Part shown: positions 6,938 through 11,512 of the stretch, in pieces | Layout of the letters: every line of letters begins with the position of its first letter | How positions within the stretch are numbered: the first letter of the stretch is position 1 | Origin: Thiomicrorhabdus indica | GTDB taxonomy: Bacteria > Pseudomonadota > Gammaproteobacteria > Thiomicrospirales > Thiomicrospiraceae | DNA length: 64,000 bases | Direction: 5' to 3' | Assembly (NCBI RefSeq): GCF_004293625.1 | Contig: NZ_CP033040.1 | Span: 2,743,001 to 2,807,000, forward strand | The notes under the pieces: model-generated | Database searches by the model: none | What the model saw: only the letters and a program-made list of their open reading frames with translations | What the model was told of the DNA's origin: nothing | Program-made: the position numbers and the translations under genes

Positions 6938-9112
6938 ATGCAGACTTTCGCAATCGAGACTTTTGATAAAACTCAACCTATCTCACAACAAAAGCAACTG
7001 ATTAGTCATAACATCATTTTAAACAGGGGAGAGGTGGAAGAAAAACGTGCTGAAATCAAAGCTTATTTTAATCAAACCTTTGATATCTACGAAGCTCTGT
7101 TTGAAACTCTTGCCAATGATGATGCCTACTACATGCGACCTTGTAGCCTGCGCCACCCACTGATCTTCTATTTTGGTCACACCGCCACTTTCTTCACCAA
7201 TAAATTAGTGTTAGCAAAACTGCTCCCGAAGCGCATCAACCCAAAAATCGAATCCATGTGTGCGGTTGGGGTAGATGAAATGTCATGGGATGATCTAAAT
7301 GAAGCAAATTATGACTGGCCAACCGTTCAAGAAGTGCGCACCTATCGCAACCAAGTTCGCGAAGCAGTGAATGACCTGATTGATTCTGTTGAATTTTCCA
7401 TGCCAATTGATTGGCAAAGCCCTCTTTGGCCAGTGATGATGGGCATCGAGCATGAGCGTATTCACCTTGAAACTTCATCCGTGCTCATTCGTCAACTACC
7501 TATTGATACAGTCTTACCTAGCCCAATCTTTCCAATTTGCCCTGAACAGGACCCGAAAGCGCCAGACAATAGTTTGCTGACAGTTACTGCAGGTGAAGTT
7601 GTGATTAACAATCAAGATCCTGCGGAATTTTACGGCTGGGATAATGAATATGGACAACATCACACGTTTGTTGACGAATTCAAAGCTTCAAAATATTTAG
7701 TGAGCAATGCCGAATTTTTAGAGTTTGTCGAAGCCGGAGGCTATGAAACAAGTGAGTTTTGGGATGAAGAAGGCAATCGTTGGCGAGATTACTCTCCTGT
7801 AAAGCATCCAAGCTTTTGGATTAGAAAAGACGACGATTGGTATCTGCGCTGCATGACCGAAGAAATTGCTATGCCATGGAGCTGGCCTGCAGAAGTCAAT
7901 TTCCATGAAGCTGCTGCATTTTGTCGCTGGAAATCGAAAATGACCGGCAAATCGATTCGCCTTCCATCTGAAGATGAATGGTTACGTCTGCGGGATTTTT
8001 CAGGAGCAATGGCCTATCAAGACCAAGCTAATTGGAATTTGCAGAAATATGCCTCTTCAACCCCTGTAGATGATTCACCGGCCGGTGAATTCTTTGATAT
8101 CTTAGGAAACGTTTGGCAATGGACTATGACCCCCATTTACCCATTTGATGGCTTTAAAGTTCACCCTCTGTACGATGATTTCACGACACCAACTTACGAT
8201 AATCGCCACAACATTTTCAAAGGTGGTAGCTGGATTTCAACCGGCAATGAAATCAATGGCCTCTCGCGGTATGCCTTCCGCCGCCATTTTTTCCAACACG
8301 CCGGTTTTCGCTACATTGAATCGGATGCCGAAGTACAGACTGAATTTTCAACCTATGAAACCGATGTCACCGTCGCCAGAGCCTGTGATTTCCACTATGG
8401 CGAAGAAAAATTTGGCATTGCAAACTTTGCCAAGACTATTGCCGAACTGGCGCAAACAGCGATCTCTGAGGATATCGATCTAGCCAAACGTAATGATATT
8501 AAAGCTATTGAGGTCGGCTGTAGCGTGGGTCGAACCAGTTTTGAACTCTCGAAGCACTTTAATGAAGTCACAGGACTGGATTTTACCGCCCGCAATATTC
8601 GCATTGCTCACCAGCTACAAACCACCGGTTCGGTACTCTACACCATCGCTCAAGAAGGCGAAGTCATGAACTTTGAAGAGCGTACTTTAAGCGAATATGG
8701 TTTAGACAAATTCGCAACCAAATGCGAATTTTTACAGCAAGATGCGAGCAATATGAAACCGATCTTTACCGGTTACGACATAATGGTATCAGCCAACTTG
8801 CTGGAAAAGCTCTATGAACCCCAAAAATTCCTAACCGATATCGCTCACCGTTTAAACACTGGTGGTTTACTTCTTTTAGCATCGACGTATGATTGGAGTG
8901 AAAAAAACACCCCCAAAGACCGATGGCTAGGCGGCTTAAAAGATCCAAAAACCGGTGAAAACGTTGACAGCTTTGATACGATTGCAAAAATACTCGGTAC
9001 TGACTTTGAATTAGTGAAAGCTCCGTTTGATATTGAACTTGTGCAACGGCAAACCGCTCGAAAATTCGAACATAGCCTTTCAGAAGTCAGCATCTGGAAA
9101 AAACGTTATTAA
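6938..9112 (+). CDS. ovoA: Ovothiol synthase OvoA (5-histidylcysteine sulfoxide synthase/methyltransferase)
   Basis: OvoA is a non-haem iron enzyme that joins cysteine to C5 of histidine with oxygen to give a sulfoxide; its C-terminal domain later N-methylates the 5-thiohistidine to ovothiol A. The 724-residue protein has the three expected parts: a DinB-like N-terminal domain with the iron-binding H-x3-H-x-E (His172, His176, Glu178) and an earlier conserved His in YFGHTATFF; a formylglycine-enzyme-like middle (WLRLRDF, FDILGNVWQWT, FKGGSWISTGNE); and a SAM methyltransferase (AIEVGCSVGRTSFELSKHF, GLDFTARNI). The C-terminal methyltransferase and the neighbouring ovoB distinguish it from ergothioneine EgtB. 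Three tandem repeats lie upstream. Confidence 0.93.
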   Translation: MQTFAIETFDKTQPISQQKQLISHNIILNRGEVEEKRAEIKAYFNQTFDIYEALFETLANDDAYYMRPCSLRHPLIFYFGHTATFFTNKLVLAKLLPKRINPKIESMCAVGVDEMSWDDLNEANYDWPTVQEVRTYRNQVREAVNDLIDSVEFSMPIDWQSPLWPVMMGIEHERIHLETSSVLIRQLPIDTVLPSPIFPICPEQDPKAPDNSLLTVTAGEVVINNQDPAEFYGWDNEYGQHHTFVDEFKASKYLVSNAEFLEFVEAGGYETSEFWDEEGNRWRDYSPVKHPSFWIRKDDDWYLRCMTEEIAMPWSWPAEVNFHEAAAFCRWKSKMTGKSIRLPSEDEWLRLRDFSGAMAYQDQANWNLQKYASSTPVDDSPAGEFFDILGNVWQWTMTPIYPFDGFKVHPLYDDFTTPTYDNRHNIFKGGSWISTGNEINGLSRYAFRRHFFQHAGFRYIESDAEVQTEFSTYETDVTVARACDFHYGEEKFGIANFAKTIAELAQTAISEDIDLAKRNDIKAIEVGCSVGRTSFELSKHFNEVTGLDFTARNIRIAHQLQTTGSVLYTIAQEGEVMNFEERTLSEYGLDKFATKCEFLQQDASNMKPIFTGYDIMVSANLLEKLYEPQKFLTDIAHRLNTGGLLLLASTYDWSEKNTPKDRWLGGLKDPKTGENVDSFDTIAKILGTDFELVKAPFDIELVQRQTARKFEHSLSEVSIWKKRY
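8077..8086. repeat. ACCGGCCGGT palindrome in ovoA
   Basis: Perfect copy encoding Ser-Pro-Ala-Gly. Confidence 0.9.
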
Positions 9113-9151
9113 ATCATACAAGCCTTCAACTTGCTGCAAACACAAGCCAAA

Positions 9152-9181
9152 GCATCACGACTCATAATTGAATTGTGATGC
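9152..9181. repeat. Hairpin between ovoA and ovoB
   Basis: GCATCAC and GTGATGC form a 7-bp stem around a 16-bp loop in the 166-bp ovoA-ovoB gap. No T-run follows it. Confidence 0.5.
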
Positions 9182-9278
9182 ACTTTAAGCGCATAGAAGG
9201 ACAGAAACAAATTCATGATATCCTTTGGATACACTAACTGAAAATATCAGTTTCATTCATATCAATTTCGGAAAACTC

Positions 9279-10535
9279 ATGGATAATACCGAGTGGCAAA
9301 TTCCTCTTTCTACCGAGCAAATATCACATGCTCACCTTACCTATTTTGACCGGCCGGTAAATCGAGAAAACACTTTTTCAGAAAAGTATGATCTACGAGA
9401 AACGCTATTTGGCACCAAAGACGTGATACCTATGTGGGTCGCGGATATGGACTTGCCGACTGCACCATTTATTATTGATGCTCTCAAACAACGTCTTGAC
9501 CACTCCCTTCTTGGCTACAACCTCATGCCAAACACAGCCCTTGAAGCGATTATTGACTGGCAAGCACAACACAATTACACAGTGCACACCAAAGAAATCT
9601 GTTTCACACACAATGTTGCCAATGGATTTCACCTTGCTGTACAAGCGGTAACGGAACCAAAAGACTCAGTTTTGGTGATGACACCGGTTTACCCCCCTTT
9701 TATGCAAGCGGCTGAAAAAACTGGACGAAAAACGGTTTGTTTACCACTTTTAGAGACTCATACTGACAGCGTCATCGACTATCAAATGGATTTTGAAAAT
9801 CTTGAGAAATCGTTCAGTAGTGACAACATTAAAGCACTGTTATTTTGCCATCCTCACAACCCCGTTGGGCGTGTTTGGAGCAAACAAGAATTGTTAAAAC
9901 TGAGCCAGCTCTGTTTAGATTATGGCGTGGTAATAATTTCTGATGAAATCCATTCGGACTTAGTTTTGACCGGCCGGCATATTCCTATCGCAAGCCTGAG
10001 CGAAGAAGTTGCCCAAAAAACCATTACGTTAAGTTCTCCGGGCAAAACTTTTAATTTGGGCGGCTTGCAAATTGGTTATGCCATTATTGCCAACCCTTAC
10101 CTTCGCAAACAATTTGAAAAAGCCAGTCAAAGCGTTTCCATTCACGATTTAAACACCTTTGCACTGCACGCCTTAATTGCCGCTTATTCACCGGCCGGTA
10201 ACAATTGGACTTTGGCTCTTTTAGAGCACATTAAAAACAACTTCAATCAACTTCAAATATTTTTGAAGCAATATGCCCCAGAAATCAAAATCAACCGAGC
10301 ACAGGCAACTTATCTAGTTTGGTTAGATTTTTCAGCTTGGGGATGGCCACAAAACCAATTGAAAGACTGGCTCGTCAAGGAAGCCAAACTCGGACTAAGC
10401 AATGGAGACTCTTTTTTCCCGAAACAAATTCGGGACACCAGCAAGATGCGAATGAATCTCGCAGTCTCAACTGAAACCATGCAAAATGCCCTGAAACAGT
10501 TGCAACTGGCACTTGAAAAGAGAACAATCGAATGA
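9279..10535 (+). CDS. ovoB: PLP-dependent sulfoxide lyase OvoB (PatB/MalY-type fold)
   Basis: OvoB cleaves the histidylcysteine sulfoxide made by OvoA to release 5-thiohistidine. The 418-residue protein is a fold-type I PLP enzyme of the PatB/MalY C-S lyase group. Typical segments are PMWVADMDLPTAPFI, the YNLMP loop, HPHNPVGRVW, ISDEIHSDLVL and SSPGKTFNLGGLQ, whose Lys would bind PLP. The ATG at 9279 fits the usual N-terminus better than an in-frame TTG at 9225. Its stop overlaps the next start by 4 bp, so the two are probably translationally coupled. By sequence alone it could be an ordinary cystathionine lyase; the place next to ovoA argues for OvoB. Confidence 0.85.
   Translation: MDNTEWQIPLSTEQISHAHLTYFDRPVNRENTFSEKYDLRETLFGTKDVIPMWVADMDLPTAPFIIDALKQRLDHSLLGYNLMPNTALEAIIDWQAQHNYTVHTKEICFTHNVANGFHLAVQAVTEPKDSVLVMTPVYPPFMQAAEKTGRKTVCLPLLETHTDSVIDYQMDFENLEKSFSSDNIKALLFCHPHNPVGRVWSKQELLKLSQLCLDYGVVIISDEIHSDLVLTGRHIPIASLSEEVAQKTITLSSPGKTFNLGGLQIGYAIIANPYLRKQFEKASQSVSIHDLNTFALHALIAAYSPAGNNWTLALLEHIKNNFNQLQIFLKQYAPEIKINRAQATYLVWLDFSAWGWPQNQLKDWLVKEAKLGLSNGDSFFPKQIRDTSKMRMNLAVSTETMQNALKQLQLALEKRTIE
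9349..9358. repeat. ACCGGCCGGT palindrome in ovoB (first)
   Basis: Perfect copy encoding Asp-Arg-Pro-Val, near the start of OvoB. Confidence 0.9.
10190..10199. repeat. ACCGGCCGGT palindrome in ovoB (second)
   Basis: Perfect copy encoding Ser-Pro-Ala-Gly. An imperfect copy ending in C also lies at 9969-9978 in the same gene. Confidence 0.9.
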
Positions 10536-11512
10536 AGAACCCTATGGCCGCACAAATCGCTGAACAGTTGGAACAAAGTAAACACTGGGAACCTCTAAAT
10601 CGCGATACGATGGAATTTCATCGATTCGAAGGCACGAAACCCGAAGCGGAATTTAATCGTGAGCTTTTAGCACATTTAATAACTTTCGACCACTTCTATA
10701 AGAGGATTCAACACCGTTACGCCTGCGGTTTTGAAATTGAATTTTATCTAGTTCCAGAACAGATACCCTTTTTAGAGCAAACCATCGCCGCCTTACTTCC
10801 CAAATCACAAATGCTGCTGATTGATTTAAACAAGCCGATAAAAACCAATGGTCGGCATTTTTATTTAATGGCCGAAAACACAGGTAAAGCACCAGAAGGA
10901 CTAAAAAGCTATGAATTAGTAAGCCCGATTCTAGACCCAAAAAGCTTGCCGTATTTTTTAACCACACTCCTAGACACTTTAAACACTCTTCAAGCGCAAG
11001 ATAATCAACATCTAGGCTTTCATCTCCATATTTCGACTGAAGACCCCGATCCGATTTCACCGATTGCGCTGCTGTTTTTTTTGGATCAAAATCGCTGTTT
11101 TGATTGGCCTGAACGCCAGTTCACTCGTGATTTAGTGAGACAGTTTTTTGAGTATCCACCTCAAGACTGGCAACTCATTTTTGAAGAAATTACGCGTAAA
11201 TGCTATAACTTAAACCTTCTTCATTACCCTGAAAACAATCGAATTGAACTTCGCTCAGTCGGTGGCACAAGCTATCTACAACAAAGCAAAAAAATCATCG
11301 AAAATAGCTTAAATGCTTTAATTAGCTTTGAACAAGCAAAAAAAACACCGGTTCTTGAAATTGCTACACAAATCGAAAAGCGCTTTTCCCCGTCGAAAAA
11401 TATCCAACCTTTAAACCAGGTAGACTACCGAACCTTACTCAAGAGTTGTGACCAATCCAGAACCAAACAAATGTGGTTCTCGACTATCCGGCCTACAACG
11501 CATGAAGAGTAA
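10532..11512 (+). CDS. Amidoligase-like protein (glutamine synthetase/GCS-type fold) in the ovothiol operon
   Basis: This 326-residue protein is not a standard ovothiol gene. It carries the motifs of the amidoligase family related to glutamate-cysteine ligases: G-F-E-I-E at residues 66-70, SYELVSPILDP near residue 129, GFHLHIS with His164 and His166, YNLNLLHY, and R-I-E-L-R-SVGGT starting at Arg237. In this superfamily the Glu, His and Arg residues bind metal and ATP and the enzymes form amide bonds. Its start overlaps the ovoB stop in ATGA, so co-expression is very likely. An amide-linked ovothiol or 5-thiohistidine product is an inference. It has no signal peptide or membrane segment. Its stop lies 2 bp from that of the convergent gene at 11515. 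Confidence 0.65.
   Translation: MKNPMAAQIAEQLEQSKHWEPLNRDTMEFHRFEGTKPEAEFNRELLAHLITFDHFYKRIQHRYACGFEIEFYLVPEQIPFLEQTIAALLPKSQMLLIDLNKPIKTNGRHFYLMAENTGKAPEGLKSYELVSPILDPKSLPYFLTTLLDTLNTLQAQDNQHLGFHLHISTEDPDPISPIALLFFLDQNRCFDWPERQFTRDLVRQFFEYPPQDWQLIFEEITRKCYNLNLLHYPENNRIELRSVGGTSYLQQSKKIIENSLNALISFEQAKKTPVLEIATQIEKRFSPSKNIQPLNQVDYRTLLKSCDQSRTKQMWFSTIRPTTHEE

Follow-up and report, generated by a model that had tools for sequence, protein, structure and literature searches.

An ovothiol operon with an amidoligase-like third gene suggests a possible amide-linked 5-thiohistidine

Known synthesis of the antioxidant ovothiol proceeds without a ligase, through OvoA, whose C-terminal methyltransferase domain is also named OvoC, and OvoB. 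In the literature we found, only OvoA, OvoB and 5THNAT are known to take part in the chemistry of 5-thiohistidine. The last of these is an ovoA-linked, acetyl-CoA-using GNAT N-acetyltransferase that acts on the alpha-amine of 5-thiohistidine before methylation; ovothiol A is not a substrate, and some of its OvoA partners have no methyltransferase domain (PMC12631010). 5THNAT is the closest precedent we found for the operon described here, which shares with it the linkage to ovoA and, in our proposal, the same target amine. In contrast to the 5THNAT system, the predicted enzyme here is a glutamine-synthetase-like ligase, and the methyltransferase domain of its OvoA partner is kept but altered. 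Our literature search found no description linking ovothiol with an amidoligase, and the titles and abstract openings of work on ovothiol, OvoA, ligase and glutamine synthetase mention no such enzyme. The search likewise found no described ovothiol amide, in line with the first-pass annotation of this DNA.

The window, a stretch of 64,000 nucleotides, comes from the complete 2.83 Mb genome of the sulfur-oxidising bacterium Thiomicrorhabdus indica. We use lig for the third gene of its ovo operon and for the homologues of that gene, and lig-less for genomes without it. The features of the operon are as follows.

ovoA, 6938..9112, + strand: 724 residues, N-terminal sulfoxide synthase plus methyltransferase domain (TIGR04344, TIGR04345)
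OvoA methyltransferase domain, 8330..9109, + strand: about residues 465-724, placed by motif comparison
ovoB, 9225..10535, + strand: PLP-dependent PatB-type C-S lyase (TIGR04350)
lig, 10532..11512, + strand: 326 residues, predicted Amidoligase_2 (glutamine-synthetase-like) ligase (PF12224, profile match, fold search, synteny)
GFEIE motif of lig, residues 66-70, 10727..10741, + strand: putative metal-binding ExE
ELVSP motif of lig, residues 128-132, 10913..10927, + strand: from sequence and homologue alignment
GFHLH motif of lig, residues 162-166, 11015..11029, + strand: from sequence and homologue alignment
RIELR motif of lig, residues 237-241, 11240..11254, + strand: from sequence and homologue alignment

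A two-domain OvoA together with a C-S lyase defines an ovothiol operon, and both are present here. OvoA scored 680 bits against TIGR04344 and 286 bits against TIGR04345, and OvoB scored 472 bits against TIGR04350, the PatB-type C-S lyase model. Both proteins are full length and lie far above the curated cut-offs, as in the known pathway. The operon differs from that pathway in having a ligase gene embedded in it and in an OvoA methyltransferase domain without the canonical DR, SPY and FVIRET motifs. All three open reading frames lie on one strand, and the stop of ovoB overlaps the start of lig in ATGA; the coordinates and sequence thus bear out the original reading of ovoA, ovoB and an overlapping third gene at 6938-11512. 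The ovoB frame has 436 codons when counted from the TTG at 9225, but from the sequence translation more likely begins at the in-frame ATG at 9279.

The first-pass annotation had called the third protein 'amidoligase/GCS-type' on the strength of its four motifs, whose positions were exact to the residue. A Pfam search gave Amidoligase_2 (PF12224) as the sole family match, at 24.9 bits (E 2.3e-5), only just above the cut-off of 22. Amidoligases of this kind were reportedly described by Iyer et al. in 2009, as cited in PMC4431377 and PMC6478659. The family motifs ExE, E(L/I)VSP, HxH and IExR-G are all present in lig, in order. Across the six homologues, which share 39-47% identity, residues E68, E70, E128, H164, H166, E239 and R241 are invariant, and residue 237 is R or H. 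Because the only Pfam family match has this E value and all six homologues adjoin ovoA, the motifs are not a chance observation. We also compared a profile of the six lig homologues with one of 12 phage-type Amidoligase_2 proteins from phage and bacterial loci. The two matched with 97.3% probability (E 2e-11, residues 64-247), with GFEIE, ELVSP, GFHLH and IELR-GG of lig coinciding with the phage motifs, while 20 column-shuffled control profiles reached at most 0.3% against the phage-type profile. Membership of lig in Amidoligase_2 is therefore established. The phage-type proteins have the same four motifs in the same order and spacing, but they and most bacterial members are unlinked to ovoA. 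The bacterial 'FGLHLNPE'-type Amidoligase_2 proteins are distant relatives of lig only (hhalign 19%), and none occurred in the ovoA neighbourhoods that we read. In three phage records (L190, L191 and L192), the amidoligase is flanked by genes for a glutamine amidotransferase and/or a gamma-glutamylcyclotransferase, which suggests a phage-encoded gamma-glutamyl conjugation.

An AlphaFold2 model of lig built from the six sequences was of moderate quality (pLDDT 71, pTM 0.72). Its best 50 matches in the PDB were glutamine synthetases and their relatives, including the GCS2-type 1tt4, and they were weak (best E 1.3e-3, TM about 0.3); a sequence search of the PDB gave no match. The structure prediction on which the family assignment had been made to depend thus has glutamine synthetases as its nearest folds, with match values that are weak on their own. 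Taken with the family assignment, the model makes a glutamine-synthetase-like fold likely.

The second half of the label 'amidoligase/GCS-type', taken narrowly as a glutathione GCS, is not supported. No Pfam match linked lig to the glutamate-cysteine ligase families PF04262, PF08886 or GCS2; PF12224 was the only hit. Lig-bearing and lig-less genomes alike carry a PF08886 GshA and a GshB, and in the window's genome the GshA gene adjoins gshB. As both enzymes are encoded separately, lig is not the glutathione ligase of these genomes, and we rejected that role. EgtA and GshA are gamma-glutamylcysteine ligases that belong, at fold level, to the same superfamily. They resemble lig as ligases of thiol pathways, but differ in that lig has no GCS-family match and stands beside a separate PF08886 GshA in the genome.

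The first-pass annotation had also asked whether the gene recurs beside ovoA. We found lig homologues in 6 of the 63 genomes from the host family (OvoA itself in 44 of the 60 searched for it), and in all six lig touches ovoAB. Three gene orders occur: ovoA-ovoB-lig (the window), ovoA-lig-ovoB (two genomes) and lig-ovoA-ovoB (three genomes). Ovo loci with otherwise conserved flanks occur without lig. In the OvoA tree the six lig genomes fall into three lineages, each surrounded by lig-less relatives; because the branches concerned are well supported, three separate changes in lig presence are required. The constant linkage to ovoAB supports the tie of lig to the ovothiol pathway well. Some glutamine-synthetase-like amidoligases modify proteins, and the family match alone is silent on substrate, so lig could in principle modify OvoA, OvoB or some other peptide unconnected with the pathway and simply be carried along with the operon. 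We regard this as very unlikely: linkage in six of six cases across three gene orders, together with co-evolution specific to the methyltransferase domain (see below), points to a small-molecule pathway, and no candidate peptide gene was seen.

Searching genome contigs with the window's lig protein alone gave no matches, and the six-sequence lig profile returned three loci, each among the known six. Scans of the class (369 genomes) and phylum (398 genomes), of viral contigs, of plasmids and of phages gave no further member of the lig subfamily, which is therefore narrow: among the genomes searched, it was seen solely in the Thiomicrospira/Thiomicrorhabdus family, beside ovoAB. Two lig-bearing genomes, L055 and L060, have recently exchanged ovoAB. 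Their ovoA and ovoB differ at about 0.2 of fourfold sites, compared with 0.53-0.64 for the adjoining lig and upstream genes. The high synonymous divergence of lig had raised the alternative that lig was replaced, which we rejected because the flanking genes show that it is ovoAB that is unusually similar. Within the family, ovo loci differ in their third gene; lig-less L042, L043 and L044 have a short-chain dehydrogenase-like gene after ovoB. In the Thiomicrospira-like genus, just downstream of ovoAB in L050, L059 and L070 and also near it in L055 and L060, are selD-like (selenophosphate synthase) and/or selU-like (tRNA 2-selenouridine synthase) genes, named from reading the sequences alone; a selenium link to ovothiol synthesis is possible.

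We then compared OvoA from lig-bearing and lig-less genomes, column by column, taking otherwise conserved columns that have changed in two or more of the three lig lineages, a threshold chosen after inspection. Eight columns differed, all eight in the methyltransferase domain and none in the sulfoxide synthase domain. Part of these shifts are the same substitution: D623 became E in all three lineages and Y482 became A in two, while P650 became T, T or D. In none of the three lineages is the FVIRET segment intact. Where most of the OvoAs compared have the canonical NL[IL]DR, SP[YF] and FVIRET, the window's OvoA has NLLEK, STYDW and ELVQRQT. Among random lineage triples, 2 of 1500 reached as many same-residue columns. 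Between the window's OvoA and its nearest lig-less relative, identity is 82% for the N-terminal domain but 62.5% for the methyltransferase domain; for two lig-less sisters the values are 83% and 84%. Ranked by excess methyltransferase change on fixed-topology domain trees, a measure not normalised for branch length, the three lig-gain branches come 1, 4 and 9 among 73; random branches would give so low a rank sum with a probability of 0.0007. The tree of the methyltransferase domain keeps each lig lineage with its own lig-less relatives, so the changes arose separately. The same tree does not support a spread of methyltransferase domain and lig as one transferred block.

The position of these changes bears on a role like that of EgtA, which in mycobacterial ergothioneine synthesis makes the gamma-glutamylcysteine used as sulfur donor. 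Lig would, on such a scheme, supply gamma-glutamylcysteine to OvoA, as its glutamine-synthetase-like family and its place beside a sulfoxide synthase might lead one to expect. We consider this the least probable of the readings weighed here, since GshA is already present in the genomes, we saw no gene for an EgtC-like amidohydrolase in the operon, the sulfoxide synthase domain has no convergent change, and the change that did occur sits in the methyltransferase, which never meets the sulfur donor.

Low dN/dS (about 0.07-0.08 for both lig and the methyltransferase, in lig-bearing pairs with unsaturated synonymous sites; 0.2 for the methyltransferase of one close lig-bearing pair) and an intact SAM-binding segment indicate that the methyltransferase domain is constrained; on the dN/dS values we rejected a decaying methyltransferase. 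The canonical methyltransferase motifs are also missing from the OvoAs of five lig-less members of the family (L054, L062, L076, L078 and L080), and no ligase was found near their ovoA. The association between lig and the altered methyltransferase is consequently strong yet not exclusive; in these five, a different modifying enzyme may be encoded elsewhere, or the alteration may have arisen for an unrelated reason. In L054, genes for a solute-binding protein and an ABC transporter lie downstream of ovoAB. Together with a Pfam score barely above cut-off, these five OvoAs could also fit a lig that is a degenerate enzyme or regulator, a fold without catalysis, with the methyltransferase divergence reflecting lost ovothiol methylation. 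That account is improbable in view of the seven motif residues kept invariant at 39-47% identity, the constraint on lig and methyltransferase alike and the intact SAM-binding segment.

A second association came from more distant OvoAs. Those of L148-L163 keep the canonical methyltransferase motifs, while those of L164-L166 do not, and directly upstream of ovoA in each of these three is a gene for a protein of roughly 375 residues. The genes of this second family, and the PLP enzymes that follow ovoA in L164-L166, are listed in the coordinates of their own records.

Second-family gene, L164, 8238-9365, - strand: directly upstream of ovoA
Second-family gene, L165, 3493-4617, + strand: directly upstream of ovoA
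Second-family gene, L166, 3511-4656, + strand: directly upstream of ovoA
Second-family gene, L200, 8188-9327, - strand: directly upstream of ovoA
PLP enzyme after ovoA, L164, 4721-5983, - strand: best models GntC/VioD/PRK07324-type aminotransferases
PLP enzyme after ovoA, L165, 6728-7870, + strand: best models GntC/VioD/PRK07324-type aminotransferases
PLP enzyme after ovoA, L166, 6802-7956, + strand: best models GntC/VioD/PRK07324-type aminotransferases

The second-family protein has no Pfam or NCBIfam match, no sequence match in the PDB and no detectable sequence similarity to the window's lig. Its motifs are VHFELEGC, VHIPNAIQ-NVS and AR-EHRLGAAS--Y, the last of which we take to resemble the R-x-E-x-R signature of glutamine synthetases. 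A model built from three sequences (pLDDT 66) matched glutamine synthetases, GmaS and 1-naphthylamine GS in the PDB, with E values down to 5.6e-9, probability 1.00 and TM about 0.5. On this modelling, the proteins appear to be previously undescribed glutamine-synthetase-fold ligases. The genome G726, chosen solely for an equally low OvoA methyltransferase score, has a second-family gene at the same place; its ligase was predicted from the methyltransferase domain before the locus was read, and it is the fourth gammaproteobacterium with this family. Counting both families, all 10 of the 10 ligase-linked OvoAs have a non-canonical methyltransferase, compared with 6 of the 52 others (Fisher 7e-8, with no correction for relatedness). 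The best models for the PLP enzymes of L164, L165 and L166 are not PatB, and these clusters may have swapped their C-S lyase partner.

Our model, to which we give a probability of roughly 60%, is that lig is an ATP-dependent amidoligase of glutamine-synthetase fold dedicated to the ovothiol pathway, which would conjugate 5-thiohistidine before methylation. The N-terminal domain of OvoA would join histidine and cysteine; as this domain has no convergent change, the free amino acids presumably remain its substrates. OvoB would release 5-thiohistidine, and lig would form an amide between it and a partner molecule. Most likely, the gamma-carboxylate of glutamate would be activated and attached to the alpha-amine of 5-thiohistidine, and the product would then probably be gamma-glutamyl-5-thiohistidine, an analogue of gamma-glutamylcysteine. 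The remodelled methyltransferase of OvoA would then methylate the conjugate. It is the convergent change in this domain that suggests an action of lig before methylation, and we propose that the methyltransferase was retuned because it meets a different substrate. Glutamate is the favoured donor because of superfamily precedent and because phage relatives lie beside gamma-glutamylcyclotransferase and glutamine amidotransferase genes. This scheme refines the first-pass proposal that ovothiol or 5-thiohistidine is joined to an amino acid or amine. The operon adds a predicted ligase to the known ovothiol pathway, and its thiol product is plausibly new.

The direction of the amide could also be reversed: lig would then act on the carboxyl group of 5-thiohistidine or ovothiol and couple it to an amine, for instance a polyamine or an amino acid, in the manner of glutathionylspermidine-type thiols. 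The family, synteny and methyltransferase evidence fit this too, the glutamine-synthetase-like fold is adaptable to other acceptor amines (GmaS and 1-naphthylamine GS are among the best matches of the second family), and the transporter genes downstream of ovoAB in lig-less, non-canonical L054 count in its favour. We nevertheless find it unlikely, since to our knowledge every characterised ligase of the glutamine synthetase superfamily (GS, GCS, EgtA, PuuA, GmaS, PafA) activates the gamma-carboxylate of glutamate, and the phage relatives are co-encoded with gamma-glutamyl-handling enzymes.

Returning to gamma-glutamyl transfer onto 5-thiohistidine, we tentatively suggest, at a little under even odds, that amide-conjugated (gamma-glutamyl) 5-thiohistidines form a further class of histidine-derived thiols. 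This class would have arisen several times through at least two sequence-unrelated glutamine-synthetase-fold ligases, each with re-targeting of the methyltransferase. If true, this would mirror the extension of cysteine to gamma-glutamylcysteine and glutathione. The state of the methyltransferase motifs offers a sequence marker for thiohistidine-modifying enzymes, one that already predicted the ligase locus of G726. From the repeated acquisition of a dedicated ligase, with an accompanying methyltransferase change, we predict that sulfur-oxidising and other marine bacteria contain cellular thiols of a new class.
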